Assembly: GCA_947259215.1 (NCBI GenBank)
Contig: CAMYLJ010000029.1
Coordinates: 1 to 64,000 of the forward strand
Direction: 5' to 3'
Origin: an uncultured delta proteobacterium
GTDB lineage: Bacteria > Myxococcota_A > UBA9160 > JAFDET01
Length of the DNA: 64,000 nt
The notes below the pieces were generated by a model. That model did not search any database. It was given only the letters and a program-made list of their open reading frames with translations, and had not been told where the DNA came from. Shown here in pieces: positions 39,422-62,336 of the stretch (position 1 is the stretch's first letter; each line of letters begins with the position of its first letter). The position numbers were made by a program, and so were the translations under genes.

Positions 39422-39474
39422 AACCTGCGGGTCGGCTAGCCTCACACGGCGCATGGCAGCGCGCGGAGACTCCG

Positions 39475-41229: not shown

Positions 41230-41254
41230 GCACGCCTGCCTCCCGCCGCAGCGA

Positions 41255-42046: not shown

Positions 42047-42078
42047 GGGTGGAGGACGTTCATCTCGCCCGTGGGCGC

Positions 42079-42561: not shown

Positions 42562-42582
42562 GCGGGGGTCTCCTTTGGGGGT

Positions 42583-43866: not shown

Positions 43867-44000
43867 AGGGTTGCCTCGCCCGTCCCGCCGCCGCGCAGTC
43901 TAGCCCACTCCCCCCGGGAGAGGCCCGCGTAACCCGCCCCCGGGCCCCGGCATTCCAGTAGCGACACCAGGGAGCTTCGGGGGAAGCGCACGGAGAAGCC

Positions 44001-44819: not shown

Positions 44820-44822
44820 CCG

Positions 44823-45623: not shown

Positions 45624-45665
45624 GGCGGTCCTCCGGCGGGCGAAGCCCGCTGGATCCATACTACC

Positions 45666-45680
45666 CTCCCGCGACGGGAG
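45666..45680. promoter_or_regulatory. Small palindrome CTCCCG-CGA-CGGGAG
   Basis: Perfect 6-bp arms around a 3-bp spacer in the gap between the divergent crotonase (start 45623) and acyl-CoA dehydrogenase (start 45688). The right arm also supplies the GGGAG Shine-Dalgarno of the dehydrogenase. It could be an operator or a translation-control hairpin; in GC-rich DNA it may also be chance. Confidence 0.3.
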
Positions 45681-45687
45681 ACGAGCC

Positions 45688-46863: not shown

Positions 46864-46873
46864 GGAGCCTCGC

Positions 46874-47956
46874 ATGCAGTTCGACCTGGACGACGAGCGC
46901 GCACAGCTGAAGCAGGCGACGCGCGAGCTCTTGGAGGGCGAGTCACCCCTGGCCGAGTCCCGGGCGCTGATGGAGCAGAGCGCCGAGGGCTTCTCCAAGG
47001 CACTCTACGCGCAGCTGGCGGAGCTCGGCTACCTGGGATTGCTGCTGCCCGAAGACGCGGGCGGCGCCGGTGTGGGCCACGTCGGGCTCGCGGCAGTGCT
47101 GGAGGAGATGGGCCGCGTGGCGTTTCCCGGTCCGTTCCTCGACCAGATCCTGGCCATCGAGACCCTGCGCCGCTGTCCCGGCGACGAGGCGCGGCGCTGG
47201 CTCGAGCGCGCGCTGGGCGGCGACGTACTCGTCGTCCTGGCCCGGGCGGAGACCCTGTCGCTCGACGAGCCCGCGCAGCCCGAGACGCGGCTCGCGGACG
47301 CGCGGATCGTCGGACGCAAGCGTTGGGTACCCTTCGGCGCCCAGGCGGACGCGCTGCTCGTGACCACCGACCAGGGCCTCGCGCTCGTGCCGCGCCCCGA
47401 CAGTGGCTGGAATGCGACGCCGCTGGAGACCATCGACCTGGCCCAGCGCTTCGCCGAGATCCCGCTCGCTGCACCCGGGAGCGCGCTGCTCGGCCCGGCG
47501 GCGACCGACGCGGCGCTCGCCGAGGTGGACCGCACCGGCGCGCTCGCCGCGGCGGCGCTCCTGCTGGGCGTGATGGAGCGCTCCCTCGAGCTGACCCGCG
47601 ACTACACCGTCGAGCGCCAGGCCTTCGGCGCACCCATCGCGAGCTTCCAGGCCCTGCAGCACCGCATGGCCGACATGCTGATCCAGACCGAGGGAACCCG
47701 CGCCGCGGTCTACCGCGCGGCCTGGGCGACGGATGCGGAGGACGCCGACGCGGCACGGCTGGTGGCGGTCGCCAAAGCGCAGGCGGGCGACGCATCGCGC
47801 TTCGTCTGCGGCGAGACGATCCAGCTCCACGGGGGGGTCGGCTACACCTGGGAGTACGACCCCCACATCTACTACAAGCGCGCCAAGACCCTGGAGCAGT
47901 TCTACGGCTCGACCCGCGACGCGCTCGAGCAGCTGCTCGAAGCCTCGGGGATCTGA
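46874..47956 (+). CDS. Acyl-CoA dehydrogenase, short (beta-type) subunit
   Basis: A 360-residue partner-type acyl-CoA dehydrogenase. The N-terminus LGYLGLLLPEDAGGAGVGHVGLAAVLEEMGR is canonical, while the middle beta domain is shortened and the SEPGAGSD substrate motif is missing. The C-terminal ERQAFGAPIASFQALQHRMADM, IQLHGGVGYTWEYDPHIYYKRA is normal FAD-contact sequence. Expected to form a dimer of dimers with the product of 45688. Convergent with the next dehydrogenase. Confidence 0.9.
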   Translation: MQFDLDDERAQLKQATRELLEGESPLAESRALMEQSAEGFSKALYAQLAELGYLGLLLPEDAGGAGVGHVGLAAVLEEMGRVAFPGPFLDQILAIETLRRCPGDEARRWLERALGGDVLVVLARAETLSLDEPAQPETRLADARIVGRKRWVPFGAQADALLVTTDQGLALVPRPDSGWNATPLETIDLAQRFAEIPLAAPGSALLGPAATDAALAEVDRTGALAAAALLLGVMERSLELTRDYTVERQAFGAPIASFQALQHRMADMLIQTEGTRAAVYRAAWATDAEDADAARLVAVAKAQAGDASRFVCGETIQLHGGVGYTWEYDPHIYYKRAKTLEQFYGSTRDALEQLLEASGI

Positions 47957-47971
47957 CGCGCGCCGACGCGT

Positions 47972-49093
47972 TCAGCGGCGTCCGCCGAGGCCGAGCCCCT
48001 GGCGGGCCACGATGCTGCGCATGATCTCGGTGGTGCCGCCGCCGATGGTCTCCCACAGGCTCTGCCGCCAGAGCGTGTTCATGCGATTGCCGTCAACCAG
48101 GGTCTCCGGGCCGCCAAACGCCATGGCGGCGCGCGCGATCTCCTGACACGCCAGGGTGTGCACGACCTTGTTGGCGGCCGCCTCCACCGCGGCGTCGCGG
48201 CCCTTCTGCATGGCGTCGAGGACCCGCAGGCCCCAGATCTCCGCCTCCTCCACCCGCACCGCCAGGTCCGCCAGGCTGCGACGCACGTGGGGGTGCCCGA
48301 CGAGCTGGTGCTCCCGCGCGAACGCCACCACTTCCTCCAGGTCGCGGCGCACGCGCTTGGGCGCGAACTGGATGTGTCGCTCGTCGGCCAGCGCCTCGCC
48401 CACGATCTTCCAGGCGCCGTTCTCCGGTCCCACCCGGCTCGCGACGGGCACCTCGACGGCGTCCAGGTGGATCTCGTTCAGCTGGTCGCCGTCGAGGGTC
48501 GGAAGCGGCCCCACCCGCACGCCCGGCGCGTCGCGCGGCACGACGAAGAGCGAGAGTCCCGCCCCGCGGCTCTCCTGGGAGCCCGTGCGCGCCAGGAGCC
48601 ACAAGCAGTCCATGTCCTGGGCGTAGGACTGCCAGCATTTCTGGCCCGTCACGACGTAGGTGTCGCCGCGCCGCTCTGCGCGGCAGCGCACGGCGGCCAG
48701 GTCCGAGCCGGCTTCGGGCTCGGAGTAGCCGAGGGAGAAGTGGAGCTCGCCGGCCCGGATGGGCGGCAGCCACTCGCGCTTCTGCGCCTCGCTGCCGTGG
48801 CGGATGATCGTCTTCGCGACGATGCCGGAGGCCAGCGGGTTTCGCGCCGCGCGCGCGTACGCCACCTCGTCCCACAGCAGGTACTCCCAGGAGAGCGGCA
48901 TCGCGAGGCCACCCGCCTCCTCGGGCCAGACGAGCGCCAGCCAGCCGCGCTCGCCCATGGCCCGGAAGAGCGCGCGCACGCGCTCCCAGTGGTGGCCCTG
49001 GCAGTAGAAGGCGTCGAGATCGCGCCAGTCGTCCAGGAACGCGACGACCTCGGCGCGGAACGCCTCCTCCTCCCGAGAGAAGCCGAGGTTCAC
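47972..49093 (-). CDS. Acyl-CoA dehydrogenase, long type
   Basis: A 373-residue acyl-CoA dehydrogenase. LGYSEPEAGSDLAAVRCR, TGQKCWQSYAQDMD, and C-terminal GGGTTEIMRSIVARQGLG. The possible base Glu lies in EALADERHIQF. GTG start overlaps the upstream crotonase stop (GTGA). Last gene of a five-gene minus-strand operon (three dehydrogenases, crotonase, dehydrogenase) that starts under the degenerate operator at 52823. Confidence 0.91.
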   Translation of the reverse strand: MNLGFSREEEAFRAEVVAFLDDWRDLDAFYCQGHHWERVRALFRAMGERGWLALVWPEEAGGLAMPLSWEYLLWDEVAYARAARNPLASGIVAKTIIRHGSEAQKREWLPPIRAGELHFSLGYSEPEAGSDLAAVRCRAERRGDTYVVTGQKCWQSYAQDMDCLWLLARTGSQESRGAGLSLFVVPRDAPGVRVGPLPTLDGDQLNEIHLDAVEVPVASRVGPENGAWKIVGEALADERHIQFAPKRVRRDLEEVVAFAREHQLVGHPHVRRSLADLAVRVEEAEIWGLRVLDAMQKGRDAAVEAAANKVVHTLACQEIARAAMAFGGPETLVDGNRMNTLWRQSLWETIGGGTTEIMRSIVARQGLGLGGRR

Positions 49094-49914
49094 GACTCCT
49101 CGTCCTCGACCCGCGCGTTCGGGTCCGGGTTCCAGCGCGGCTCGCGCTTCTCGGCGAAGGCGCGCGGGCCCTCGCGGAAGTCCGGGTGGCCCCAGTGCAG
49201 GCGCAGCAGGCCCCAGGCGTGCTCGAGCGCCTCGCCGTAGCCGCGTTCGAGCGCGCCCCACACCGCCTGCTTGGAGAGCGCCATGGCCTGGGGCGAGTTG
49301 CGCTTCATGACGTCGGCCATCTCGCGGGCCAGGGGCAGCAGGTCCGCCGGCGCGGCCACCAGCTCCTCCACCAGCCCCAGCTCGTACGCGCGGCGTGCAG
49401 GCATCCGGTAGTGGCGACCCATCAAGGTCATGCGCAGGGCCGAGCCCAGGGGCAGCCGCCGCGCCAGCCCGACGTTCTCCAGCGCGCCCACCATCCCCAC
49501 GTTCACGTGGGCATCCATGAAGGCCGCGTTCTCGGAGGCCAGCACGATGTCCGAGTCCACCACGAAGTGCAGCCCGCCCCCGACGCAGAGACCGTTCACC
49601 GCGCAGATCACCGGCTTCCAGACCCGGTTCTGGCGCGGCGACCAGTGCACGGCGTCAGCCAGCGGGCGGTTGTTGAAGACGGACTCCGCCTCGCCGCCCT
49701 CGGCCTCGGCGACGTCGAAGCCGGTGCAGAAGTGGCGCTCGCCCGCCGCGCTGACGATCGCCACGCGGATCTCCGGATCTTCGCGCACCTCGCCCCAGAT
49801 CTCCCGCATGCGTCCCTGCATGGACGGCGTCAGCGCGTTGCCGCGCTCCGGCCGATCGAGAGTGATGGTGGCGACCCCGCCCTGCGTCTCGTAGCGGATG
49901 TCGGTCTGCGTCAT
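49090..49914 (-). CDS. Enoyl-CoA hydratase/isomerase (crotonase) family
   Basis: A 274-residue crotonase. ATITLDRPERGNALTPSMQ, RHFCTGFDVAE and NGLCVGGGLHFVVDSDIVLAS; the second catalytic position reads VGMVGALENVGLARRLPLG. The His in GGGLHFV in place of the usual Glu and the low Glu content of the active site suggest it may not be a classical hydratase. Overlaps genes on both sides by 4 bp, so it is strictly co-translated with the dehydrogenases. Confidence 0.9.
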   Translation of the reverse strand: MTQTDIRYETQGGVATITLDRPERGNALTPSMQGRMREIWGEVREDPEIRVAIVSAAGERHFCTGFDVAEAEGGEAESVFNNRPLADAVHWSPRQNRVWKPVICAVNGLCVGGGLHFVVDSDIVLASENAAFMDAHVNVGMVGALENVGLARRLPLGSALRMTLMGRHYRMPARRAYELGLVEELVAAPADLLPLAREMADVMKRNSPQAMALSKQAVWGALERGYGEALEHAWGLLRLHWGHPDFREGPRAFAEKREPRWNPDPNARVEDEES

Positions 49915-50729
49915 CGCGCCTCCTCCCCCAGATTCCAGTCCAACAGCACGCGCTCCCGCGCCTCGCTCAGCGTGGGAGGTTGGCTCGCCAGCTGGAGGAT
50001 GCGGCGGGACACGTGGAAGACCGGCCCCTCCAGGGTGATCCCCACGGCCCCGAAGAGCTGGTGGCAGGCGTGCGCCGCGTCGACGGCGGCCCGCGTCGCC
50101 GCGAACTCGCCGATCGCCCGGCCGAACTGCTTCCGGGACCGCACGTGCTCGGCGGTTGCGTCCACCAGCTTCCGCGCTGCCGCCGCCAGGTAGCACGCCG
50201 ACGCCAGGTCGTGGAGCGCCAGGGCACGCGACGCGTCTCCCAGGTCTTCCGTCACGTCGCAGTCGGCGCGACCCCAGGGCTCGCCGCCCAGGGTTCCCAC
50301 GGGCTCGGGCGTTCCGCGCGGAGCGAGCCGCACGGCCCGGCCCTCGCGCACCGCAAGGATCACGTCCGCCTCGCAGCCGAAGGGCAGCAGCGGCGGCTCC
50401 GCCAGTGACACCAGCGCCTCGCCGCGCGCCACGGCGGCGCGCTCCTCGTCGGGGAGCACCTGGGTCGCGAAGAAGCTCGCCGCCAGCGGTCCCGGAAAGA
50501 GCGCCGCCCCGAGCGACTCCATGGCCGCTGCGAGCTCGAGCGCCCCGCCGTCTCCTTCCGGTGTCGCCAGCGCCAGGATCCCGAGCTCCGCCAGCGCCTG
50601 CCACGGCTCGCGCGCGAAGCTTCCCGCTCCGGCGCGAATCGCCTGCTCGGGACAGCGATCCCGCGCAAAGGCCGCGACCGCGTCGGCGATGGCGCGCCCA
50701 GCGTCGTCGAGCTCGAGGTCGAGGCTCAT
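49911..50729 (-). CDS. Short acyl-CoA dehydrogenase subunit
   Basis: A 272-residue acyl-CoA dehydrogenase-like protein, clearly shorter than the usual 380. The N-terminal helical domain and the C-terminal RSRKQFGRAIGEFAATRAAVDAAHACHQLFGAVGITLEG are present; the middle beta domain is mostly gone and no catalytic Glu can be placed. Such proteins act as beta subunits. Start and stop both overlap neighbours by ATGA. Confidence 0.87.
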   Translation of the reverse strand: MSLDLELDDAGRAIADAVAAFARDRCPEQAIRAGAGSFAREPWQALAELGILALATPEGDGGALELAAAMESLGAALFPGPLAASFFATQVLPDEERAAVARGEALVSLAEPPLLPFGCEADVILAVREGRAVRLAPRGTPEPVGTLGGEPWGRADCDVTEDLGDASRALALHDLASACYLAAAARKLVDATAEHVRSRKQFGRAIGEFAATRAAVDAAHACHQLFGAVGITLEGPVFHVSRRILQLASQPPTLSEARERVLLDWNLGEEAR

Positions 50730-51655
50730 GCGTCCCCCGCCCAGCGCGCCGACGCCACCGCGCGGCCGTGCGCCGGCGCTCCGCCCAGCTCGAGACGCAG
50801 CGCCTGGAGGCGCATGCTCCACACGTGCAGATCGTGCTCGCGCGTGAAGCCCATGGCGCCGCTGAACTGGTGCGTCTCGTCGAAGACCCGCCGCGCCGCC
50901 TGGGCGGCGTGGGCCGCGGCGACCGCCGCGCCCTCGACGGGCGCGCCGGCATGGGCCGCCTCCAGGGCCAGCCAGCGGCTGCCCTCCACCGCCACGTGCA
51001 GCTGGGCCAGGCGATGCTGCACGCCCTGGAAGGAGCCGATGGCGCGCCCGAACTGGCGACGCTTCTTCACGTAGTCGAGGGTCGTGTCCAGGGCGGCGCG
51101 CATGCAGCCCGCGAGTTCCGCCGCCAGCGCGACCTGCCACCACGCCCGGAGTCGCTCCGCCGCTTCCGGTCCCAGACGGGTTCGCTCGCGACCGCCCTGC
51201 ACCCGGCCCATGGGAAAGCCGAAGTTCGAGGCCACCGCCTCCGTGTCTCCTGGCTCGAGGGAGAGCACCGCGACGCCGTCGGCTTCGAGGCGCAGCGCGC
51301 TCCGGGCATGGGCGGCGTAGCGCACCGGGAGCTCGCGCTGCGTGGGAAGCAACGCGACCGGTCGCGGCAGCTCCTCGTCGACGAGCAGCGGCGCCACCAG
51401 CGCCGCGGCCCCGACGCCGATCACGCCCCCGGCACGCGCCACCGCCTCCACCAGCAGCGCCGCCTCGAGGGGACCCGTCTCGTCGCCCCGCGCCAGGTCC
51501 AGGAATCCGGCCTCGGCCAGGGCGTCCTCCAGCGGCGAGTCGTACTCCGCCTTGGCGGACAGCGCGATCGCCCGCTCGGGACCGGCGTGACGCGTGAGCA
51601 GCTGCTCGACGGCCTCGAGGATGGCCTGCTGGTCGGCGGCGAGCTCGAAATCCAC
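50726..51655 (-). CDS. Short acyl-CoA dehydrogenase subunit
   Basis: A 309-residue acyl-CoA dehydrogenase-like protein. KKRRQFGRAIGSFQGVQHRLAQLHVAVEGSRWL and DETHQFSGAMGFTREHDLHVWSMRLQALRLELGG mark the C-terminal FAD domain; the central beta domain is reduced. GTG start, 6 bp after the long subunit at 51662. Together with the gene at 49911 there are two short subunits and two long ones in this operon, perhaps two heteromeric enzymes (inference). Confidence 0.87.
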   Translation of the reverse strand: MDFELAADQQAILEAVEQLLTRHAGPERAIALSAKAEYDSPLEDALAEAGFLDLARGDETGPLEAALLVEAVARAGGVIGVGAAALVAPLLVDEELPRPVALLPTQRELPVRYAAHARSALRLEADGVAVLSLEPGDTEAVASNFGFPMGRVQGGRERTRLGPEAAERLRAWWQVALAAELAGCMRAALDTTLDYVKKRRQFGRAIGSFQGVQHRLAQLHVAVEGSRWLALEAAHAGAPVEGAAVAAAHAAQAARRVFDETHQFSGAMGFTREHDLHVWSMRLQALRLELGGAPAHGRAVASARWAGDA

Positions 51656-51661
51656 CTCGCG

Positions 51662-52807
51662 CTACTCCCGCGGCAGGCCGAGCACGCGGCTCGCGACGAG
51701 GTTCAGCTGCACCTCGGTAGCGCCCACCGCCACGCCCGCCGTCATGGCCCAACGGAAGCGCGTGTCTGCGTAGCTCCCGTAGACCAGCGCCTCGCTGCCG
51801 AAGAGCTCGACGGCCAGGTCCGCCACCGCCTGCTCGGCGGTCGTCGCCGCCACCCGCGCCACGTTGGCGTCGGCGCTGGGCGGAAGGCCGTGAGCGCGCT
51901 GGTCGATCACGCGGTAGCTGAGCAGTCGCGCCGCCTCGCAGAGTGCACGGGCCTCGCCCAGCTGCTCGCGCACCCGCGGCTCGCCCAGCTGGCCGCGCGC
52001 GCGCGCCTGCTCCGCCAGGTCGTCCAGGATCCGCGCGGCGCGGTGATAGCGCGCCGCGCCCACGCGCTCGTGCTGGAGCGCGTAGGTGACGACGGACCAG
52101 CCTTCGTTCTCCGGGCCGAGCCGACAGGAGACGGGGACCCGCACATCGCTGAAGAAGACCTCGTGGAAGTAGCGATCGCCCACCACCGACGGGATCTCGC
52201 GCACGTCGATCCCGGGCAGATCCATCGGCACGAGCAGCACCGAGATGCCCCGGTGCCGCTTCGACTCGGGATCGCTGCGCACCAGCAGGAAGCAGTAGTC
52301 CGCGTGGTTGGCGTAGGAGGTCCAGATCTTGGAGCCGTTCACGGTGTAGTCGTCGCCGTCGCGCGCCGCGGCGGTGCGCAGGGCCACCAGGTCGGAGCCC
52401 GCCTCGGGCTCGGAGAAGCCCTGGCACCAGAGCACCTGGCCGGCGGAGATCTTCGGCAGGTGGAGCGCCTTCTGCTCCTCGCTGCCGTGCTGCATGATCG
52501 CCGGGCCGATCCAGTTGACGTTCATGTACTGCGGGCCGCGGGGCTCGCCGATGCCCCACATCTCCTCGCCGAAGATCGCGTGGCGCCAGGGCGAGGCGTC
52601 CGCGCCCCCGTGCGCGCGAGGCCAGCTCTGGGTGAGCCAGCCGCGCTCGGCCAGCCGGGCGCAGAACGCCCGCGAGAAGGACGCCTGGGCATCGCTGCCG
52701 GGCCCGCCGCGGGAGAGCTCCTCCCAGTCGTCCGGCAGTGCCTCCGCCAGGAACTCCTGGACCTCGCGGCGGTAGGCGACCTCTTCGGGCGACCAGTCGA
52801 ACTCCAC
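51662..52807 (-). CDS. Acyl-CoA dehydrogenase, long type
   Basis: A 381-residue acyl-CoA dehydrogenase. WCQGFSEPEAGSDLVALRT, NGSKIWTSYANHADYC, RYFHEVFFSDVRVPVSCRLG and the C-terminal VAVGATEVQLNLVASRVLGLPRE. A Glu in ALQHERVGAARYH is the likely base. GTG start with GGGAGG upstream. First gene of the operon, 16 bp downstream of the degenerate palindrome and divergent from the acyl-CoA ligase at 52909. Confidence 0.92.
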   Translation of the reverse strand: MEFDWSPEEVAYRREVQEFLAEALPDDWEELSRGGPGSDAQASFSRAFCARLAERGWLTQSWPRAHGGADASPWRHAIFGEEMWGIGEPRGPQYMNVNWIGPAIMQHGSEEQKALHLPKISAGQVLWCQGFSEPEAGSDLVALRTAAARDGDDYTVNGSKIWTSYANHADYCFLLVRSDPESKRHRGISVLLVPMDLPGIDVREIPSVVGDRYFHEVFFSDVRVPVSCRLGPENEGWSVVTYALQHERVGAARYHRAARILDDLAEQARARGQLGEPRVREQLGEARALCEAARLLSYRVIDQRAHGLPPSADANVARVAATTAEQAVADLAVELFGSEALVYGSYADTRFRWAMTAGVAVGATEVQLNLVASRVLGLPRE

Positions 52808-52908: not shown

Positions 52909-54570
52909 ATGGCCTTCCCGGACTACGCGCCGTCGATCCCGGTCTTCCTGCGCCGGCTGGCGCAGCGCTTCGGCGAGAAGGAGCTGGTGGTGCTGGGCGA
53001 CCAGCGCCTCAGCTACGCGGGCGCGGAGCGCGAGTCGGCCGTGCTGGCCCGCGGCCTGCTGGCGGCCGGCGTCGGCAAGGGCACGCGCGTCGGCCTCTTG
53101 CATCCGAACGGTCCCGACTGGGTGACGGGCTGGCTGGCGGCCGCGCGCATCGGCGCCCTGGTGGTGCCGATCAACACCTTCTACCAGGCGCGCGAGCTGG
53201 GCCGGATCCTGCGCCACGCGGACGTGCACACGCTGCTCTCCCGCGCGCGCTTCCTGCGCCACGACTACCTGACGCAGCTCGAGGTGGCCGCGCCGGAGCT
53301 GGCGGCGCAGAAGGGCGAGCCGCTGCATCTGCCGAGCCTGCCGTACCTGCGCGCCGTGCGCGTCTGGGGCGGGAGCGATCGCGCCTGGGCCGGCGACGGC
53401 CCGCACGGCCTGCGCGCACTCGCAGCTGCGACGCCAGCCATCGACGACGCCTACCTCGCGGCGGTGGAGGAGCAGGTCGCGCCCGCGGACCCGATGATCC
53501 TGATCTACAGCTCGGGCAGCACCGCCGAGCCCAAGGGCGCGATCCACAGCCACGGCGCCGTCCTGCGCCACTCCCACAACCTGAACCAGTTTCGCGACAT
53601 CCAGGAGAGCGACCGCATCTACACCCCGATGCCCTTCTTCTGGGTCGGGGGCTTCTCCTTCGGCCTGGTGTCGGCGATGCACATGGGTGCCAGCATGATC
53701 TGCGAGGAGCTCTTCGAGCCGGGCGCCACCCTCGACCTGATCGAGCGCGAGCGCGCCACGGTGGTGGCGGGCTGGCCCCACTACGCCAAGGCGCTGGCGG
53801 AGCATCCGAGCCTGCGCGAGCGCGACCTGTCTTCGATCCGCACGGGCAACCTCTACGAGGTGCTGCCGCCGGAGCTGCGCCCGCGCGACCCGGAGCTGCG
53901 CTCCAACTCCCTCGGCATGACGGAGACCGGCGGACCCCACACCATCGACCGCATGGACGTGGACCTGCCCGAGACGCTGCGCGGCTCCTTCGGGCGCTCG
54001 GTGCCCGGCCTCGAGCACAAGCTGGTGGACTCCGAGACGGGCGAGCGCCTCGAAGCCGGTGACTTCGGCGAGATCTGCGTGCGCGGCTACAGCGTGATGC
54101 AGGGGCTCTACAAGGTGGAGCGCGAGGACGCGTTCGATGCCGACGGCTACTACCACACGGGGGACGGCGGCCGCTTCGACGCCGAGGGCTACCTCTTCTT
54201 CGAAGCGCGGCTCGGCGACCTGATCAAGACCGGTGGCGCCAACGTGGCGCCGCGGGAGGTGGAGGTGGCGCTGATGGCCCTGCCGGAGGTGAAGCAGGCC
54301 TACGTCGTCGGCGTACCGCACCCCGAGCGGGGGCAGACGGTGGAGGCCGCCGTGGTCCTCCAGGCGGGCCGCAGCGCCGAGGCCGACGACCTGCGCGCGC
54401 GCCTCAAGGCGGAGCTCTCGGCGTACAAGGTGCCGCGCCACCTGTTCCTGTACACGAGCGCCGAGCTCCCCTTCACCGACAGCGGCAAGATCGACAAGCG
54501 CGCGCTCGCCACCCTGCTCGCCGCGCGCCTGGCCCGAAGAGCGAGCCTGAGAAACGGGGACGGTCCTTAG
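52909..54570 (+). CDS. Acyl-CoA synthetase (AMP-forming, FadD-like)
   Basis: A 553-residue ANL ligase. IYSSGSTAEPKGAIHSHGAV is the P-loop-like motif; NSLGMTETGGPHTID is the adenine block; YHTGDGGRFDAEGYLFFEARLGDLIKTGG and AYKVPRHLF complete the hinge and C-terminal domain; DSGKIDKRAL carries the catalytic Lys. The last residues SLRNGDGP are encoded by the 67-bp palindrome that has inserted over the gene end, replacing the native C-terminus. Activates the acid for the divergent dehydrogenase operon. Confidence 0.93.
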   Translation: MAFPDYAPSIPVFLRRLAQRFGEKELVVLGDQRLSYAGAERESAVLARGLLAAGVGKGTRVGLLHPNGPDWVTGWLAAARIGALVVPINTFYQARELGRILRHADVHTLLSRARFLRHDYLTQLEVAAPELAAQKGEPLHLPSLPYLRAVRVWGGSDRAWAGDGPHGLRALAAATPAIDDAYLAAVEEQVAPADPMILIYSSGSTAEPKGAIHSHGAVLRHSHNLNQFRDIQESDRIYTPMPFFWVGGFSFGLVSAMHMGASMICEELFEPGATLDLIERERATVVAGWPHYAKALAEHPSLRERDLSSIRTGNLYEVLPPELRPRDPELRSNSLGMTETGGPHTIDRMDVDLPETLRGSFGRSVPGLEHKLVDSETGERLEAGDFGEICVRGYSVMQGLYKVEREDAFDADGYYHTGDGGRFDAEGYLFFEARLGDLIKTGGANVAPREVEVALMALPEVKQAYVVGVPHPERGQTVEAAVVLQAGRSAEADDLRARLKAELSAYKVPRHLFLYTSAELPFTDSGKIDKRALATLLAARLARRASLRNGDGP

Positions 54571-54611
54571 AAACTGCAGCAGTTTCTAAGGACCGTCCCC
54601 GTTTCTCAGGC
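54545..54611. repeat. 67-bp perfect palindrome (REP/MITE-like)
   Basis: Two 33-bp arms (54545-54577 and 54579-54611) are exact reverse complements around a single central A. Key parts are CCTGAGAAACGGGGACGG and TTAGAAACTGC. It sits between the convergent ligase and ferredoxin genes and supplies both stop codons: TAG at 54568-54570 for the ligase, and the TGA in the outer arm for the ferredoxin. It can form a very long hairpin, so it would terminate transcription in both directions. The symmetry and precise length suggest a mobile palindromic repeat. Confidence 0.85.
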
Positions 54612-54812
54612 GTAGGGATCGACCTCGGAGCCGGCGTCGTCGACGAGGACGATGGCCATGGCCGGGCAGTCGCGGGCGATGGCGACGAGCCGCGCCTCGG
54701 GCCACTCCCGCGCCTGCGGCAGGGCGTGGGCCAGCCGGTCGGCGTCCCAGGCGAAGACCTCGGGCGCCGCCTGGAGGCAGCGGCCCGAGCTCTGGCAGCT
54801 CTGCTTGTCCAC
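54606..54812 (-). CDS. [3Fe-4S]-type ferredoxin
   Basis: A 68-residue ferredoxin. Cys6, Cys12 (CQSSGRC) and Cys49 followed by Pro (DCPAM) match the three-Cys [3Fe-4S] ferredoxins that feed bacterial P450s; the usual second Cys of a CxxC is absent. The start codon is GTG; the N-terminal strand normally found before the first Cys is only five residues, so the start could be earlier. Its last codons and stop fall in the large palindrome. It lies 98 bp from the divergent TetR gene, whose operon includes a P450, its likely partner. Confidence 0.85.
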   Translation of the reverse strand: MDKQSCQSSGRCLQAAPEVFAWDADRLAHALPQAREWPEARLVAIARDCPAMAIVLVDDAGSEVDPYA

Positions 54813-54878
54813 CCGTGCTCACAGTCCCAGGGCGTGCGCCTCCCCGCGAGAGCCCACGATACCGCGCCGAGTGTTGAC

Positions 54879-54902
54879 TTTCTACCTGCGTGCAGGTAGA
54901 AA
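54879..54902. promoter_or_regulatory. TetR-gene operator, TTTCTACCTGC-GT-GCAGGTAGAAA
   Basis: Perfect inverted repeat with 11-bp arms and a 2-bp spacer, 8 bp before the TetR-gene ATG. A TTGACT at 54874-54879 runs into its left arm and looks like a -35 box, so a bound dimer would block transcription. The gap also serves the divergent ferredoxin gene. Sequence differs from the TCTGACG operator, so it belongs to another regulator, most simply the adjacent TetR protein. Confidence 0.75.
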
Positions 54903-54909
54903 AAATCGC

Positions 54910-55563
54910 ATGGCCCAGGCCTCCCCCGCCCTCTCCTCGCGCGCCGAGCGCACCCGCTCCGCCATCCTGGACGCGGCCGAGGCCCTCTTCGCCGAGAAGG
55001 GCTTCGACGCCACCCGCCTGGAGGACGTGGCCGCGGCGGTCGGCATCCGGCGCGCCTCCATCGTCTACTACTTCCGCGACAAGCGGGAGCTCTACGAAGC
55101 GGTGCTGGAGGACGTCTTCGGGGGCTTCCGCGCCCGGCTCGAGCGGGCCCTCGGTGAGTCGGGTCCGCTGCTGGCGCGGATCGAGGCCGCCGTCAGCGCC
55201 TGGGTGGACTACGTGGCCGCCCGCCCCGCCCTCGCCCGCATCGTGTTGCGCGAGGTCGCCGACGGCGCGGAGGCGGGACCGCTGCCGATCCTCGCCCAGG
55301 TGGGTCCCTTCCTCGCGCTCGTCGACCGCTTCCGCGACTCCGTGCGCAACGACCCCGCGTACCGCGCGACGCCGATCGACGCCGTCCACGTGGCCAGCGC
55401 CATCGTGGGCGCGACCGTCTTCTTCATCGCGGCGATGCCGAGCCTGATGCCGGAGCCGGGCATGGAGGCGCTCGCGCCCCCCACGCTCGACGCGCATCGC
55501 CGCGAGGTGCTGCGCATCACCCGGCGCCTGCTCGGCGCCGACGATCCCGCCCCCCCCTGCTGA
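54910..55563 (+). CDS. TetR/AcrR family regulator
   Basis: A 217-residue repressor. The HTH domain spans residues 10-58: RSAILDAAEALFAEKGFDATRLEDVAAAVGIRRASIVYYFRDKRELYEAVLEDVF. The rest is a helical ligand-binding and dimer domain with hydrophobic stretches around AIVGATVFFIAAMPSL. No good Shine-Dalgarno precedes the ATG. The palindrome just upstream argues for autoregulation. It is followed 8 bp later by the P450, and the operon continues through the fusion protein and ligase, so it should govern all of them. Confidence 0.93.
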   Translation: MAQASPALSSRAERTRSAILDAAEALFAEKGFDATRLEDVAAAVGIRRASIVYYFRDKRELYEAVLEDVFGGFRARLERALGESGPLLARIEAAVSAWVDYVAARPALARIVLREVADGAEAGPLPILAQVGPFLALVDRFRDSVRNDPAYRATPIDAVHVASAIVGATVFFIAAMPSLMPEPGMEALAPPTLDAHRREVLRITRRLLGADDPAPPC

Positions 55564-55571
55564 GGAGCCCC

Positions 55572-56816
55572 GTGGCCGACGACACCCGCGACCCGTTCGA
55601 GCAGTTCAACCGCATGCAGGGTCAGGGCCAGGGGGGAATGCGCGACCTCTACCCGATGATCGACGCCATGCGCGGCCAGTGTCCGGTGCACAAGATCGAC
55701 GTGGAGGCATTCTCGGGCCATCGCCCCCAGCTCCCGAACGCCCCAAAGGAGATCTACCTGGCGGTCAGCCACGAGGCGGTGCACGACGTGCTGCTCGACG
55801 CGAAGCGCTTCTCCTCGAAGGGGTACGAGGAGAGCATCGGCAAGGTGCTGGGGCACACGATTTTGGAGATGGACGAGCCCGAGCACACCACCTATCGCAA
55901 GCTCCTGCAGCAGGCCTTCTCGCGCAAGGCGCTCGAGCACTGGCGCGACGACCTGGTGCACCCGGTGGTGCACGAGCTGGTGGACCACTTCGCCGGGCGC
56001 GGACGCGCGGACCTGGTGCGCGAGCTGACCTTTCCCTTTCCGGTGACGGTGATCCAGCGTCTGCTCGGCATCCCGGACACGGACCAGGCGGACTTCCACC
56101 GCTGGGCGATCGAGCTGATCAGCATCACCTTCGACATGGCGCGGGCGGAGGCCGCCTCGCAGAATCTCGGCGCCCTCTTCCAGCGCCTCCTCGACGAGCG
56201 CCGAGCCGCGCCGCGGGACGACCTGATCAGCGTGCTGGCCCACGCGGAGCTGGACGGCGAGCGCCTCGACGACGAGCTCATCGTGTCCTTCTGCCGGCTG
56301 CTGTCACCGGCCGGCGCCGAGACCACCTACCGCTCCACGAGCAACCTGCTCTTCGGGCTCCTGACCCACCCGGAGCAGCTCGACGCGGTGCGCCGGGACC
56401 GCGGGCTCCTGCCCCAGGCCATCGAGGAAGGCCTGCGCTGGGAGTGCCCGCTGCCGGCGATCATGCGCCGCGCCACCGCCGATACGGAGCTGGCCGGAGT
56501 CCCGATCCCCGCCGGCGCGTCGGTGGCGGTGCACCTGGCCGGGGCCAACCATGACGACTCGCGCCACGCCGCGCCGGGGGATTTCGACATCCACCGCGAC
56601 GCCAAGCAGCACATGGCCTTCGCGTTCGGCGCGCACCGCTGCCTGGGCATGCACCTGGCGCGCATGGAGACCCAGGTGGCCATCGAGGCCGTGCTGGATC
56701 GCCTGCCCGGCCTGCGCCTCGATCCCGAGGCCGGTGAGGTCTTCATCAGCGGGCTGACCTTCCGCTCGCCCCTGCAGCTTCCCGTGGTGTTCGATGCTGC
56801 CGAGCGATTCCGATGA
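55572..56816 (+). CDS. Cytochrome P450 (class I)
   Basis: A 414-residue P450. MDEPEHTTYRKLLQQAFSRKAL, I-helix LLSPAGAETTYRS, ExxR in EEGLRWECP, and haem loop FAFGAHRCLGMHLAR with Cys357. It resembles actinobacterial and myxobacterial CYPs acting on fatty acids, terpenes or steroids. GTG start, 8 bp after the TetR gene. Its stop overlaps the ATG of the fusion gene (ATGA at 56813). Likely redox partner is the ferredoxin divergent from TetR. Confidence 0.94.
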   Translation: MADDTRDPFEQFNRMQGQGQGGMRDLYPMIDAMRGQCPVHKIDVEAFSGHRPQLPNAPKEIYLAVSHEAVHDVLLDAKRFSSKGYEESIGKVLGHTILEMDEPEHTTYRKLLQQAFSRKALEHWRDDLVHPVVHELVDHFAGRGRADLVRELTFPFPVTVIQRLLGIPDTDQADFHRWAIELISITFDMARAEAASQNLGALFQRLLDERRAAPRDDLISVLAHAELDGERLDDELIVSFCRLLSPAGAETTYRSTSNLLFGLLTHPEQLDAVRRDRGLLPQAIEEGLRWECPLPAIMRRATADTELAGVPIPAGASVAVHLAGANHDDSRHAAPGDFDIHRDAKQHMAFAFGAHRCLGMHLARMETQVAIEAVLDRLPGLRLDPEAGEVFISGLTFRSPLQLPVVFDAAERFR

Positions 56817-59800
56817 GCCGGCAGCTGCTGATGGGACTCGACGTGGGCGGCGGCAGCGGCCGCTGCCTGCTCTTCGACGCCGACGCCGGCACCTCCGTCT
56901 CCGCCTGCCGCGCCTGGTCGCATCCGCCCGCTCCCGACACCGGCGGGCTCGGCTACGACCTCGACTACGCCGGCATCTGGCAGTGCCTGGGCGACGCCGC
57001 GCGGGAGACCCTGGCGCGCGCCGACGCCCGCCCCCAGGACGTGGCCGGCATCGCGACCACCGCCATGCGCTTCGGCATGGTGGTGGTGGACGCCGACGGC
57101 CGACCGGTCTACGGCGGGCCCAATCGTGACGCCCGCGCCGTGGTCGAGGGGCTCACCCTGGCGGCCGAGCACGGCGCCGAGCTGGCGGCCCGAGGCGGGC
57201 ACTGGCCGATCCCGATCGCAGGCGCACCTCGCCTCCAGTGGCTGCGCTCCCACGGCGGCTCCGCCTGGGAGAAGGCACGCTGGGTGCTCTCCCTCTCGGA
57301 CTGGCTGGCCCTCGCCCTGTGCGGCGAAGTAGCGAGCGAGCGCTCCCAGGCAGGAGCGAGCCTGCTCTTCGACCTGCACAGCGACGACTGGGACTGGGAC
57401 TGGATCGACCGCTTCGAGCTGCCGCGCGAACTCTTCCCCGCGCTCGCGGCGCCGGGCACCCGGCTGGGCGGTCTCACCGCCGAGGCCGCGGAGCACTTCG
57501 GCCTGCAGGCAGGAACGCCCGTCGCCGTGGGCGGCGCGGACACCCAGTGCGGTCTCCTCGGCAGCGGGGTGGCGGCGCCGGGCACGGCAGGCATCGTGGC
57601 CGGCACCTCGGCGCCCGTCCAGCTGGTGACCGATGCCGTCTGCCTCCACCCGGAGGCGCGCTTGTGGAGCGGCGCCCACGTGGTGCCCGGGCAGTGGGTG
57701 TTGGAGAGCAACGGCGGCTCCCTCGGCGAGGCGCTCGCCTGGCTGGCTCACGTGCTCTTCCCCGATGCGCCCGCTCCGGCGGCGCGCGCGTTGGCGGAGG
57801 CCGCCCGGGCCGAGCCTGGCGCCCGGGGCATGCTCTCCTCGGTGGGCGTTCAGGTCTTCGACGCCCGCGAGATGGGAATCCCGGTCGGAACCCTGGCCTT
57901 CTCGCACCTGGCGGCGCCTGCCGGTGCGGAGGGCCGCGCCGCGCTACTGCGGTCCGTCGTGGAGGGCGCGGCCTTCTCGCTGCGGGCCAACCTCGAACAG
58001 ATTTTCGCCACGGCAGGGCGCGACAGCGACTCGATCCACCTGACGGGCGGTCTCTCGCGCAGCGGCTTCTACGCCGGCCTGCTCGCGGACGTGCTGGGCC
58101 GGGCGCTGCGCGTGGCGTCGTCGCCAGAGGGCACGGCCCTCGGCGCCGCGCTCTGCGCGGGCACGGGCGCGGGCGTCTACGCCGACCTCCCGGAGGCCGC
58201 CCGCGCCGCGGCGGCAAGGACGACCCACATCGAGCCCGACGCTGCGCGCAGCGCGAGCTACGACGACAGCTACGCGCTCTGGCAGGACGTGCGCGCAGCC
58301 CGCGAGCCCGCCGACGTGGCCGTACGCAACCACGTCACCGGCATCGTGATCGCCGCCACCGACGCCGCCTCGGGGGCCGCCGGCCCCCGACCGCGCCCGC
58401 GCATCCTGGTGACCGCCGATCTCGACCCCGCGGCGCGGGAGGCCCTCGCGGAGCTCGGCGACGTGGAGTACGCGCCCTTCCGCGAGAAGCTGCGGCTGCT
58501 CACCGGCGACACCCTGGTGAAGGCCCTCGACGGAGTGGGCGTCTTCATCACGGAGGTGGACGTAGTGGACGCCGCGTCCGTGGCCCGGCTGCCCGACCTG
58601 CGCGTGGTGGCCAGCTGCCGCGGCGACGCCGTGAACGTGGACGTCGAAGGCTGCACGGCACTGGGCGTCCCGGTCCTGAACGCGCCGGGCCGCAACGCCG
58701 ACGCGGTGGCGGACCTGACCGTGGCCTTCCTGCTCATGCTGGCGCGCAAGCTGGTGACCGCCAATGCCTTCCTGCGCGAGCCCGGCGGCGACGCCGGCGA
58801 CATGGGCCGCATGGGCCGCGCTTTCGGCACGCTCCGCGGGCGCGAGCTTTGGCGCAAGACCGTGGGCCTCGTGGGTCTGGGCGCCGTCGGCCGCGGAGTG
58901 GCGAGGCGCCTGCGGGGCTTCGGGGTCCGCCTGCTGGTGCACGATCCGTTCCTCAGCGACGACGAGGTGCGCCTGGCGGACGCCGAGCCCGCCTCCTTCG
59001 AGCAGCTGCTGGCGGAAAGCGACTTCGTGAGCCTGCACGCGCCGGTCAGCGACGCCACGCAGGGCCTGATCGGAGCCGCCGAGCTGGCGCGCATGAAGCC
59101 CGGGGCGGGACTCGTGAACACTGCCCGCGCGGCCCTGGTGGACGAGGACGCCCTGCTCGGGGCGGTGGAGAGCGGACACCTGGGCGGCGCAGCCCTCGAC
59201 GTCTTCTGGGTCGAGCCCCCCGCCTCCGATCACCCCCTGCTCGCCCACGAGCGGGTCCTGGCCACGCCCCACGTGGGCGGCAACACCGAGGACGTGGCCG
59301 CCCACCAGGGCGCCATCATCGCCGCCGACCTGACCCGGCTGCTCGACCGGGAGCGCCCCCACCACCTGCTCAACCCGGCGGTGTGGGACGCCTTCGACTG
59401 GTCGTCGCCGCGCCCGGAGCCGGACCCGGAGACCCTCGCCGCGCTGGGGCGCAAGCCGGGTCCCGCCGTGTCGGACCTGCAGAAGGAGAAGAAGCCGATG
59501 GCTCCTCGAACCGCCTCGCCGCCGCCCTCTCAGCCGGCGACTCCCGCCTCCGGACCCGCCCCCTCGGAGACCGTGGCGACGCTGCGCGCCATCCTCGAGC
59601 GCTTCGTGTCCTCGATCGTCGCGAGCGGGGCGCTCGAGCCCTACGCGGCGGGCAAGGACGTGACCCTCCACTTCCGCGCCACGGACGCCGACCTGGCCTT
59701 CTGGCTCCGGCTCCGGGGCGGCCGAGTGAGTGCCGGTCCGGGCGCGCCCGACGAGGAGCCCGAGGTGCAGCTGAAGCTCGCGGCCGACGTGCTGGACGGA

Positions 59801-60637
59801 ATGTTCACCGGGCGCGTGAACGCCATGCAGGCCGCCATGGACGGTCGCCTCTCCTTCGCCGGCGATACGGCCAAGGCCATGAGCCTCCAGGAGTTCCAGG
59901 GGGATCTCTCGCGGCTCTACCGGGAGGCCCGGGACGCCGTCGGTGACCCCGGGGACCTGACCGCCCTCGCGACCCCCGGCCAGAGCTCCGTCGCCGCGGT
60001 CGCCCACGACGACCCGCGCCACGAGCTGATCCAGGTGATGGACGAGCTCTACGCCCAGCAGCTCATCACCGCCACCGGCGGCAACGTCAGTGTGCGCGTC
60101 CCGGGCGAGGACGCCCTCTGGATCACGCCGAGCCAGCTCTTCAAGGGCGACCTCTCGCCGGAGGCGCTGGTGCGGATCGATCTCGACGGCAAGGCCCTCG
60201 ACGAAGGAGTGCGCTCCGCCTCCAGCGAGCGCCTGATGCACTGCGCCGTCTACCGCACCCGCAAGGACGCAGGCGCGGTGATCCACGCCCACGCGCCCCA
60301 CGCCACCATCCTGGCCAACACCGACCTGCCCTTCCTGCCGATCTCCACCGAGGCCGCGTTCTTCGACAACCTCCCGCGCATCCCCTTCGTGATGCCGGGC
60401 ACCCAGGAGCTGGCGGACGCCGTCGCTGAGGGCATGCGCGAGAGCTGGGCCGTGCTGATGAAGAACCACGGGCTGCTGGTCGGCGGACGCAGCCTGCGGC
60501 GAGCTGCCGACATGGTGGAGATCATCGAGCGCTCTTCGGAGGTGATCCTGGGCTGCTACGCCGTCGGCCGGGAGCCGCCGGTCCTGCCCGACGACGTGGT
60601 GGCGACCCTGCGCAAGATGGGCGATCTCGTCGCCTGA
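56813..60637 (+). CDS. Four-domain fusion: FGGY kinase - 2-hydroxyacid dehydrogenase - SCP2 - class II aldolase
   Basis: 1274 residues, no internal stop. (1) Residues 1-500, FGGY carbohydrate kinase: LMGLDVGGGSGRCLLFD, base Asp243 in GGADTQCG, ATP site TGGLSRSGFYAGLLADVLG; LsrK-like. (2) About 528-870, NAD-dependent D-2-hydroxyacid dehydrogenase: Arg603, GLGAVG at 688-693, Glu801, His820. (3) About 925-1043, SCP2 sterol/lipid-binding domain (VTLHFRATDADLAFWLRL). (4) About 1065-1274, class II aldolase: Glu1139, His1158, His1160, His1219, spaced like the catalytic Glu and zinc ligands of fuculose-phosphate aldolase. A Pro/Ser-rich linker (896-920) separates 2 and 3. Coupled to the P450 by ATGA. 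The domains suggest phosphorylation, oxidation and aldol cleavage of a polyol linked to or derived from a lipid; unproven. Confidence 0.85.
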   Translation: MSRQLLMGLDVGGGSGRCLLFDADAGTSVSACRAWSHPPAPDTGGLGYDLDYAGIWQCLGDAARETLARADARPQDVAGIATTAMRFGMVVVDADGRPVYGGPNRDARAVVEGLTLAAEHGAELAARGGHWPIPIAGAPRLQWLRSHGGSAWEKARWVLSLSDWLALALCGEVASERSQAGASLLFDLHSDDWDWDWIDRFELPRELFPALAAPGTRLGGLTAEAAEHFGLQAGTPVAVGGADTQCGLLGSGVAAPGTAGIVAGTSAPVQLVTDAVCLHPEARLWSGAHVVPGQWVLESNGGSLGEALAWLAHVLFPDAPAPAARALAEAARAEPGARGMLSSVGVQVFDAREMGIPVGTLAFSHLAAPAGAEGRAALLRSVVEGAAFSLRANLEQIFATAGRDSDSIHLTGGLSRSGFYAGLLADVLGRALRVASSPEGTALGAALCAGTGAGVYADLPEAARAAAARTTHIEPDAARSASYDDSYALWQDVRAAREPADVAVRNHVTGIVIAATDAASGAAGPRPRPRILVTADLDPAAREALAELGDVEYAPFREKLRLLTGDTLVKALDGVGVFITEVDVVDAASVARLPDLRVVASCRGDAVNVDVEGCTALGVPVLNAPGRNADAVADLTVAFLLMLARKLVTANAFLREPGGDAGDMGRMGRAFGTLRGRELWRKTVGLVGLGAVGRGVARRLRGFGVRLLVHDPFLSDDEVRLADAEPASFEQLLAESDFVSLHAPVSDATQGLIGAAELARMKPGAGLVNTARAALVDEDALLGAVESGHLGGAALDVFWVEPPASDHPLLAHERVLATPHVGGNTEDVAAHQGAIIAADLTRLLDRERPHHLLNPAVWDAFDWSSPRPEPDPETLAALGRKPGPAVSDLQKEKKPMAPRTASPPPSQPATPASGPAPSETVATLRAILERFVSSIVASGALEPYAAGKDVTLHFRATDADLAFWLRLRGGRVSAGPGAPDEEPEVQLKLAADVLDGMFTGRVNAMQAAMDGRLSFAGDTAKAMSLQEFQGDLSRLYREARDAVGDPGDLTALATPGQSSVAAVAHDDPRHELIQVMDELYAQQLITATGGNVSVRVPGEDALWITPSQLFKGDLSPEALVRIDLDGKALDEGVRSASSERLMHCAVYRTRKDAGAVIHAHAPHATILANTDLPFLPISTEAAFFDNLPRIPFVMPGTQELADAVAEGMRESWAVLMKNHGLLVGGRSLRRAADMVEIIERSSEVILGCYAVGREPPVLPDDVVATLRKMGDLVA
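59483..59500 (+). promoter_or_regulatory. Internal Shine-Dalgarno and ATG within the fusion gene
   Basis: AAGGAG at 59483-59488 and an in-frame ATG at 59498-59500, nine bases apart, fall exactly in the linker between dehydrogenase and SCP2 domains. Initiation here would yield a separate 379-residue SCP2-aldolase protein beside the full-length fusion. It may also be the relic of the gene boundary before fusion. Confidence 0.6.
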
Positions 60638-60644
60638 GGAAGCG

Positions 60645-62336
60645 GTGATTCCGAAGAGCGACATCGCCCTGCACAACACCGTCGAGACCGAGCTGTTGGC
60701 CGAGGACGGCCCGTTTGCCGTCGAGGAGGTCCCGGTCCTGGGCGCGCCCTGCCCGGTCTTCCGCGATCGGCTGCCCCATCTGCGTCAGCTGCTCGAGAAC
60801 TCGCGCGGCTTCGGAGACGCCGAGTACATCGTCTACGCCGGCCGCCGCGTGAGCTTCGCCGAGCACCACGCACGGGTGGCCTCCGTGGCCCGCGCGCTGG
60901 CCGAGCGCTTCGGCGTCCGCAAGGGCGACCGGGTCGCCATCCTGGCGGCGAACCGCCCCGAGTGGGTGATGACCTGGTGGGCCGCCGTCAGCCTCGGCGC
61001 CATCCCGGTGGGCATGAACGGCTGGTGGGTGGCCGACGAGATCCGTTTCGCGCTGGAGGACAGCGAGCCGAAGGTCCTGGTCGGCGACCGCAAGCGCCTG
61101 GAGCGGATCGGCGCGGCGCCCGTGAACGTGCCCATCGTCGAGATGGAGTCGGAGTTCCGCGCGCTGGAGGAGCACGCCCCGGGCGTGACGCTGCCGCAGG
61201 TCGCCATCGACGAGGACGACCCGGCGAGCATCCTCTACACCAGCGGCACGACCGGCCGCCCGAAGGGCGCCATCAACACCCACCGCAACATCATCGCGCT
61301 GAACCGGGTGCAGACGTGGCACGGGCTGCGACTGCTCAAGATCGCCCTGGCCCAGGGTGGCGGCGGGGCCGGCGCTCCCCTCGGCAACTGCACCCTGATC
61401 ACCTCGCCCCTCTTCCACCTCTCCGGCCTCTACACGGGCGCGGTGACGCTCCTCGCCGCTGGCGTGAAGACCGTCTACCTGGAGGGACGCTTCGATCCCG
61501 AGCGAACGCTGGCCGTGATCCAGGACGAGAAGGTCACGAGCTGGGGGCCCATGGGCACCGTGGCGCTCCGCATCATGAATCACCCGGAGGTGGGCCGCTA
61601 CGACCTCTCCAGCATCCGCCAGCTCGGATCCGGAGGCGCCCCGGTGTCGCGCGAGGTGCAGGCCCAGATGCGCGAGGTCTTCCCGGGCGCGCGCGCCTCC
61701 CTCGGGCTCGGCTACGGGATGACCGAGGCCACCGGCATGGCCACGATCAATTTCGGTGCGGAGCTCGAGGCGCACCCGGAATCCGTGGGGCGCGGCCTCC
61801 CGACCATCGACGTGGCGATCCGCGACGCCGACGGACGGCCCGTGCCCGAAGGAGCCGAGGGCGAGATCGGCATCCACGGGCCATTGGTGATGCGCGAGTA
61901 CTGGCGGCGTGCCGAAGCCACCCGGGAGGTGCTGGCGCCCGGACGCTGGCTCCGCACCGGCGACGTCGGCCGGCTCGAGAACGGCTACCTCTACGTCAAT
62001 TCCCGCGCCCGCGACCTCATTCTGCGCGGCAGCGAGAACGTGCACCCGGCGGAGATCGAGATGCGGCTCGAGGCGCACCCCGACGTGGTGGAGGCGGCGG
62101 TCCTCGGCGTGGACCACCCGGAGCTCGGCCAGGAGGTGAAGGCGGTGGTGGTGCCGCGGCCCGGCGCAACGCCGTCGTCGGGCGACCTTTCGCACTGGGT
62201 CGCCGAGGCGTTGGCCTACTACAAGGTGCCCGCACACTGGGAGCTGCGCCGCGAATCCCTGCCCCGCAACGCCACCGGGAAGGTGCTGAAGGGAATCCTG
62301 CGCGAAGGCGGCGAAAGCCCCTTCGTCGAGGACTGA
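60645..62336 (+). CDS. Acyl-CoA synthetase (AMP-forming)
   Basis: A 563-residue ANL ligase. ILYTSGTTGRPKGAINTHRNI, LGYGMTEATGMATIN, LRTGDVGRLENGYLYVNSRARDLILRGSENVHPAEIE, and YYKVPAHWELRRESLPRNATGKVLKGIL with the catalytic Lys. The N-terminal 60 residues (LLAEDGPFAVEEVPVLG) are an extension typical of long-chain or terpenoid acid ligases. GTG start 7 bp after the fusion gene, with GAGGAAG upstream. Last gene of the TetR operon; it would activate an acid product of the P450 or aldolase steps (inference). Confidence 0.92.
   Translation: MIPKSDIALHNTVETELLAEDGPFAVEEVPVLGAPCPVFRDRLPHLRQLLENSRGFGDAEYIVYAGRRVSFAEHHARVASVARALAERFGVRKGDRVAILAANRPEWVMTWWAAVSLGAIPVGMNGWWVADEIRFALEDSEPKVLVGDRKRLERIGAAPVNVPIVEMESEFRALEEHAPGVTLPQVAIDEDDPASILYTSGTTGRPKGAINTHRNIIALNRVQTWHGLRLLKIALAQGGGGAGAPLGNCTLITSPLFHLSGLYTGAVTLLAAGVKTVYLEGRFDPERTLAVIQDEKVTSWGPMGTVALRIMNHPEVGRYDLSSIRQLGSGGAPVSREVQAQMREVFPGARASLGLGYGMTEATGMATINFGAELEAHPESVGRGLPTIDVAIRDADGRPVPEGAEGEIGIHGPLVMREYWRRAEATREVLAPGRWLRTGDVGRLENGYLYVNSRARDLILRGSENVHPAEIEMRLEAHPDVVEAAVLGVDHPELGQEVKAVVVPRPGATPSSGDLSHWVAEALAYYKVPAHWELRRESLPRNATGKVLKGILREGGESPFVED

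Follow-up and report, generated by a model that had tools for sequence, protein, structure and literature searches.

In the dihydroxyacetone phosphate (DHAP) shunt, which disposes of 5-deoxyribose through DrdK, DrdI and DrdA, the aldolase DrdA converts 5-deoxyribulose-1-phosphate to DHAP and acetaldehyde (PMC6079011). Steroid side chains are activated by bile-acid CoA ligases such as CasG and StdA1, which select by C5 side-chain length more than by the nucleus (PMC8399759), and are cut by the Shy/Sal and Ltp2-ChsH2 hydratase-aldolases (PMC11321319, PMC12329534). The ribose-derived tail of the bacteriohopanepolyols (BHPs) is made by the HpnH/HpnG route, and aminotriol by the aminotransferase HpnO (PMC12583986). 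Here we compare these systems with a gene cluster at positions 54606 to 62336 of the window, the whole 64,000-nucleotide stretch of contig CAMYLJ010000029.1 from an uncultured delta proteobacterium. The cluster could be a TetR-repressed operon that degrades the tail of hopanoids, with bacteriohopanetetrol (BHT) and other BHPs as the most likely substrates, a reading to which we give a probability of about 0.45. Its support comes from sequence, namely the domains, intact active sites, conserved gene order, operator, unfused operons and an association with HpnA, from which we infer the reactions, their order, the substrate and the inducer. The cluster consists of the following features, with domains called by Pfam and further families scored on NCBIfam models with curated cut-offs:

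54606..54812, minus strand: ferredoxin of 3Fe-4S/4Fe-4S type, 68 aa (Fer4_13, 28.6 bits)
54879..54902, no strand: putative TetR operator, TTTCTACCTGC-GT-GCAGGTAGAAA, a 100% inverted repeat with 11-bp arms
54910..55563, plus strand: TetR-family repressor, 217 aa (TetR_N, 59.6 bits), with orthologues first in the equivalent operon of relatives
55572..56816, plus strand: cytochrome P450 (p450, 99.2 bits), heme motif FGAHRCLG at residue 352 and AGAETT at 247
56813..60637, plus strand: four-domain fusion, 1274 aa (FGGY_N/C, 2-Hacid_dh/2-Hacid_dh_C, SCP2 and Aldolase_II, each above its Pfam cut-off)
56813..58300, plus strand: fusion domain 1, FGGY kinase, LsrK-like
58394..59392, plus strand: fusion domain 2, D-2-hydroxyacid dehydrogenase
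59585..59932, plus strand: fusion domain 3, SCP2 lipid-carrier domain
59996..60634, plus strand: fusion domain 4, class II aldolase of FucA/DrdA type
60645..62336, plus strand: acyl-CoA ligase related to CasG, a steroid-24-oyl-CoA synthetase (AMP-binding, 277.8 bits)

An earlier note, made from the letters of this stretch, had placed the five genes at these positions with gaps of 8, -4 and 7 bp on the plus strand; the genes are all borne out and the gaps, when recomputed, are exact.

The fusion enzyme and its predicted pathway

The catalytic residues of the fusion are well kept. In an alignment of fusions, Asp243 of the kinase is near-invariant and R772, E801 and H820 of the dehydrogenase are invariant. 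In the aldolase, E1139 aligns with Glu76 of DrdA (6btd/6btg), the best solved relative of this domain, and the HxH motif at 1158/1160 and H1219 are present, corresponding to the catalytic Glu and the three metal-binding His; the active sites are intact. As in the DHAP shunt, the predicted route would start with a kinase, pass through a ketose-1-phosphate and end with a FucA-type class II aldolase releasing DHAP and an aldehyde. However, the kinase is of the FGGY type, where that shunt has a 5-methylthioribose-type kinase or a phosphorylase, a dehydrogenase stands in place of the sugar-phosphate isomerase (as an alditol would need), and all activities are fused to one another and to a lipid-carrier domain. 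The closest solved kinase over the full length is the autoinducer-2 kinase LsrK (214.6 bits), yet the fusion kinase scores 254.6 bits on the LsrK model NF008187, well below the cut-off of 528. Autoinducer-2 catabolism was rejected on this score and because no Lsr transporter or LsrF/LsrG neighbours were seen. Tetronate catabolism was rejected as well, with the aldolase reaching 94 bits on the 3-oxo-tetronate-4-phosphate decarboxylase model (cut-off 250). The dehydrogenase domain is closest to 3-phosphoglycerate dehydrogenase (PGDH), whose substrate shares the CH2OP-CHOH unit with a terminally phosphorylated polyol. A course by way of an aldonate (C35 acid, 2-oxoacid, hydroxypyruvate) would be natural for a 2-hydroxyacid dehydrogenase, yet it accounts for neither the kinase nor the DrdA-type aldolase, and we keep it as a minor variant. 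The SCP2 domain scores 48 bits against a Pfam cut-off of 21.3, and in a Foldseek comparison with the PDB its AlphaFold2 model (pLDDT 93.4) matches SCP2 structures (E about 1e-6) and the C-terminal domains of alkylsulfatases.

The four domains very probably work as a unit, because they are fused in several phyla and occur unfused within one operon in Thermoplasmatota and Chloroflexota. In three Thermoplasmatota loci (L112, L113, L115) SCP2, dehydrogenase, kinase and aldolase are adjacent separate genes, followed by an aldehyde dehydrogenase (ALDH) on the opposite strand, and in the Chloroflexota locus L182 a single gene run reads GntR, SCP2, dehydrogenase, kinase, aldolase, aldehyde:ferredoxin oxidoreductase (AFOR), aminotransferase, M28 peptidase and HpnA. 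A Clostridiales fusion (L100:4103-8545), adjoining a MarR-like regulator and an SDR, carries two tandem SCP2 domains as read by eye. Since SCP2 is present, and duplicated in this last case, the substrate is probably hydrophobic. ALDH genes stand beside the core in L070, L080, L081, L191-L193 and the archaea, and AFOR genes in 12 loci, which fits an aldehyde product. We consider it likely that the core performs lipid-polyol chemistry, that is, that it would phosphorylate, oxidise and aldol-cleave a lipid-borne polyol to a C3-phosphate and a hydrophobic aldehyde.

If the lipid is a hopanoid, the SCP2 domain would hold the amphipathic molecule while the FGGY kinase phosphorylates the terminal hydroxyl of the polyol tail (C35 in BHT), the PGDH-like dehydrogenase would oxidise the neighbouring carbinol to a ketone (C34), and the DrdA/FucA-type aldolase would cut the resulting ketose-1-phosphate at C33-C32, giving DHAP and a C32 aldehyde. 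34-Oxo-BHT-35-phosphate is 5-deoxyribulose-1-phosphate bearing a hopane on C5. BHPs suit this chemistry because their polyol is C-C-bonded to the lipid, so that an aldolase is needed. The aldehyde would be oxidised to C32 bishomohopanoic acid by ALDH or AFOR in relatives, and by the P450 or another enzyme in the window genome. The earlier note had seen a full upper pathway here, which goes too far: a dedicated aldehyde dehydrogenase and a ferredoxin reductase are both missing from the cluster. The CasG-like ligase would then activate the acid with CoA, and beta-oxidation-type enzymes would shorten the chain. CasG is by far the closest family of this ligase (664 bits on NF052580, next family 354), although neither the ligase of the window nor any of five relatives scored reaches the equivalog cut-off of 750; these five, beside the core in Myxococcota and Halioglobus, score 606-699 bits. 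The tail of C32 bishomohopanoic acid, CH(CH3)-CH2-CH2-COOH, is identical to that of bile acids. Therefore a ligase resembling CasG, which selects the C5 side chain, fits the predicted product.

Hopanoids, which correspond in bacteria to cholesterol, are plentiful natural products and serve as key biomarkers in rocks. In the open-access literature we found no described gene for the breakdown of their side chain, nor a paper on this fusion. Oxidative cleavage of bacteriohopanoid diols has been named as the origin of hopanoic acids (PMC4339782), of which C32 is the most frequent in at least one set of rocks (PMC11884234). With some reserve, we suggest that the cluster may represent the first genetic system for breakdown of the BHP polyol tail, in which one four-domain enzyme (an operon in archaea and Chloroflexota) would remove C33-C35 as DHAP and leave the C32 aldehyde or acid; it could then be an enzymatic source of the C32 hopanoic acids of sediments, and aerobes would continue by a bile-acid-like side-chain oxidation. 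If this were true, the assumed origin of hopanoic acids would become a biological reaction that can be tested in bacteria and archaea, the reading of hopane biomarkers would be affected, a widespread unannotated fusion protein would gain a function and a role for HpnA would be indicated.

Conservation, regulation and the link to HpnA

Many genomes of the same order encode the fusion (49-68% identity), complete except where the end of a contig truncates it, and its profile matches 34 of the 90 genomes of its own class, counting fragments and single-domain matches. A single-sequence query of genome contigs had returned nothing; the wide distribution emerged from a profile-type scan with an alignment as query, which recovered the fusion in named Myxococcota/'Deltaproteobacteria', in Mycobacterium (M. 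ostraviense, simiae, innocens, attenuatum and persicum), in Halioglobus/Halieaceae, in Chloroflexota (Bellilinea, Thermoflexus, Roseilinea) and in Clostridiales. The order TetR-(P450)-fusion-(Rieske)-ligase recurs across Myxococcota/'Deltaproteobacteria'. One relative (L053) has TetR-P450-fusion-KSH-ligase, another (L047) the same with no TetR detected, and L068 the arrangement of the window. The order also recurs in L050, L071, L072, L093 and L105 (where no ligase of this kind was seen after the fusion), and Halioglobus-type loci (L058, L065, L067, L090, L091) have a divergent KSH gene and the ligase after the fusion. Conservation of the gene order in other genomes, which the earlier note had made one touchstone of its proposal, extends to other genera, families and phyla, and because of this recurrence the arrangement is not due to chance. 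Two genomes of the same family (L021, L022) have no P450 gene separating TetR from the fusion, and a homologue of the ferredoxin, the probable electron donor of the P450 or oxygenase, was found in one relative only (L047, directly behind the ligase, 50% identical). P450 and ferredoxin vary between loci, and the core is the fusion, whose distribution is much wider than that of the other genes.

In several relatives a further gene, for a Rieske oxygenase, stands between fusion and ligase. This KshA-like gene (KshA_C 134.5 bits, Rieske 79.9 bits, 172.8 bits to the solved KshA 4qdf) is not part of the window cluster. In relatives, genes for a Thiolase_C_1 protein and a ChsH2-type OB-fold protein adjoin TetR, and the best solved relative of the thiolase is 6ok1, a lipid-transfer protein that we take to be Ltp2. 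These neighbours would amount to an attack on side chain and rings of the kind seen with bile acids and cholesterol, and they fit the breakdown of a polycyclic terpenoid. Dihydroorotate-dehydrogenase and OTCase neighbours were rejected as parts of the module, as they look like housekeeping synteny.

The shared divergent operator proposed in the earlier note has a counterpart in the perfect inverted repeat between ferredoxin and TetR. It has no second match in the 5.7 Mb genome with up to 3 mismatches (a reversed-pattern control gave 0), and each of the ten relatives with TetR that were checked has CTACCTGCGYGCAGGTAG a short way upstream of this gene, with 1 mismatch in L039. The conserved CTACCTGCGYGCAGGTAG reads as the phylogenetic footprint of a single regulator with a single operator. 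Tight repression would make sense, as the window genome itself encodes HpnH (522.6 bits, on another contig than the cluster). A TetR-controlled catabolic module, as first proposed, therefore stays the best reading as regards order and operator; co-expression and catabolism are predictions from sequence.

BHPs had been set down as candidate substrates before the scan that turned up HpnA. On the HpnA model (TIGR03466, curated cut-off 367.65 bits), six Chloroflexota module operons (L056, L094, L108, L182, L185, L190) contain a gene scoring 403-446 bits, and these operons comprise two distant clades of the fusion tree as well as unfused operons; a class III aminotransferase is likewise encoded in the six. 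Among 249 genomes of one Chloroflexota class, HpnA occurs in ten: three hopanoid makers with HpnH and seven module carriers, all seven lacking HpnH. The association of HpnA with the module has a Fisher p of 4.8e-8 (2.4e-6 without the genomes seeded by earlier hits), values not corrected for phylogeny. In G217, a maker of the same class, 3 kb separate HpnA from HpnH, and this HpnA shares 70% identity with that of L056. Widening the sample to 396 genomes added three HpnA genomes, G483, G428 and G414; G483 has HpnH in the same cluster, and G428, a short contig with similar gene order, is probably a hopanoid maker. In L182:7176-11204 and L056:6299-9974, whose carriers lack HpnH, HpnA travels together with an M28 peptidase and a class III aminotransferase, presumably the family of HpnO; the latter two would fit amino-BHPs and their amides. 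Whereas HpnA and HpnO are known from hopanoid biosynthesis (PMC12583986), here HpnA and the aminotransferase stand in HpnH-negative genomes beside cleaving enzymes, which points to breakdown instead of synthesis. HpnA may be a side-chain reductase used both in making and in breaking hopanoid tails. Outside the window's own class, 19 of 20 carriers showed no HpnH; within it, module and HpnH are uncorrelated (8/34 versus 16/55, p = 0.63), which is neutral for a catabolic role; for lack of correlation with HpnH we rejected a biosynthetic one.

Weighing the hopanoid reading

Several observations weigh against hopanoids as the substrate. DrdA Gly46, in the stretch lining the phosphate site of the family, is replaced by Gln in the fusion. 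Moreover, 2-hydroxyacid dehydrogenases normally need a carboxylate, and a polyol phosphate would be an uncommon substrate for one. The KshA-like and CasG-like genes are also compatible with steroids. Sets of kinase, dehydrogenase and aldolase without SCP2 exist (L111, L186, L195, L194), hence the core chemistry is not restricted to hopanoids. HpnA also occurs apart from the module: G030, of the window's own class, has HpnA with neither HpnH nor the module, and G414, a 7.7 Mb Chloroflexota genome, has an HpnA-like gene (L222:9814-10788, 378 bits) with no HpnH or module within 10 kb. The window cluster has no HpnA, and the window genome no match at E<=1e-60, so the hopanoid link would reach the window solely through homology of the fusion. 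Finally, HpnA itself has no known function (PMC12583986).

Given the steroid-type enzymes around the core (KshA-like Rieske oxygenase, CasG-like ligase, Ltp2-like thiolase, and a P450 whose PDB relatives include PikC and the CYP142 steroid C26-monooxygenase), the same enzymology might serve another lipid, a steroid or terpenoid with a polyol or sugar-derived side chain, such as bile alcohols or a C-linked glycolipid, degraded along with its rings. We regard this as the less likely but serious rival: the HpnA association speaks against it, steroids seldom carry a C-C-linked sugar tail that needs a kinase and an aldolase, and among the carriers are archaea and Chloroflexota of hot springs, for which sterols are probably in short supply. 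Of the substrates suggested in the earlier note, 'terpenoid' accordingly fits best and steroids stay in contention. It is unlikely that the substrate of the core is a small, soluble molecule (a polyol or a sugar acid), with SCP2 as a structural or regulatory addition and P450 and ligase belonging to an unrelated pathway in the operon. The closest kinases are indeed sugar kinases, and one SCP2-less set (L194) comes with a SorC regulator and an ADH gene. Another, the Bacillota locus L111:3682-11536, has an ECF-type transporter surrounded by dehydrogenase, aldolase and kinase genes, which suggests a related pathway whose substrate is small and imported. Yet SCP2 is retained as a gene of its own in unfused operons and duplicated in Clostridiales, and in different families the fusion keeps the company of P450/KSH/ligase and of the TetR operator. 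The neighbours of L186 and L195 were also considered as a sugar ABC transporter; Pfam identifies them as YbbR, C1 peptidase and seryl-tRNA synthetase, which is uninformative.

Hopanoid breakdown could also mean that the cell remodels or recycles its own hopanoids and does not grow on external ones. The window genome, with its HpnH, is probably a BHP maker, and strict repression by TetR would keep it from running a futile cycle; the independence of module and HpnH within the class and the scarcity of HpnH in carriers elsewhere make this version improbable. We see very little chance that the cluster is an ordinary operon of unrelated oxidoreductases with no common pathway. Every gene family in it is common, and P450 and ferredoxin come and go, but operator and order are kept over families and the fused and unfused forms are equivalent across domains of life.

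Neighbouring genes in the window

Upstream of the cluster lie further genes for acyl-CoA metabolism, called by Pfam, of which the ligase and the heteromeric dehydrogenase pair are co-conserved in several relatives:

50726..51655, minus strand: acyl-CoA dehydrogenase subunit, co-conserved in L047, L071, L072 and L105
51662..52807, minus strand: adjoining acyl-CoA dehydrogenase subunit, forming a heteromeric pair as in steroid side-chain oxidation
52909..54570, plus strand: second acyl-CoA ligase, sharing an operon with TetR in L039

More widely, positions 38051-52807 are dense in P450, luciferase-type monooxygenase, MaoC hydratase, enoyl-CoA hydratase and acyl-CoA dehydrogenase pair genes, a larger lipid/terpenoid catabolic region. 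Unlike in the relatives, the thiolase/OB-fold pair of the window is not adjacent to the cluster: the ChsH2-type OB-fold protein and the Thiolase_C_1 protein are encoded at 16525-18087 on the minus strand, about 37 kb away. The pair resembles the Ltp2-ChsH2/Sal-Shy pair found beside the module in relatives, and could serve the pathway of the cluster in the window genome. On the same contig, 30243-32115 (minus strand) holds MlaA and adjacent Mla-like lipid transport genes, possibly for transport of a hydrophobic substrate. Finally, a perfect 33-nt inverted repeat with a 1-nt spacer (54545-54611) spans the 3' termini of two genes, the ferredoxin gene and that of the upstream ligase; its core is found once in the window, and it may be a REP-like element or a bidirectional terminator.

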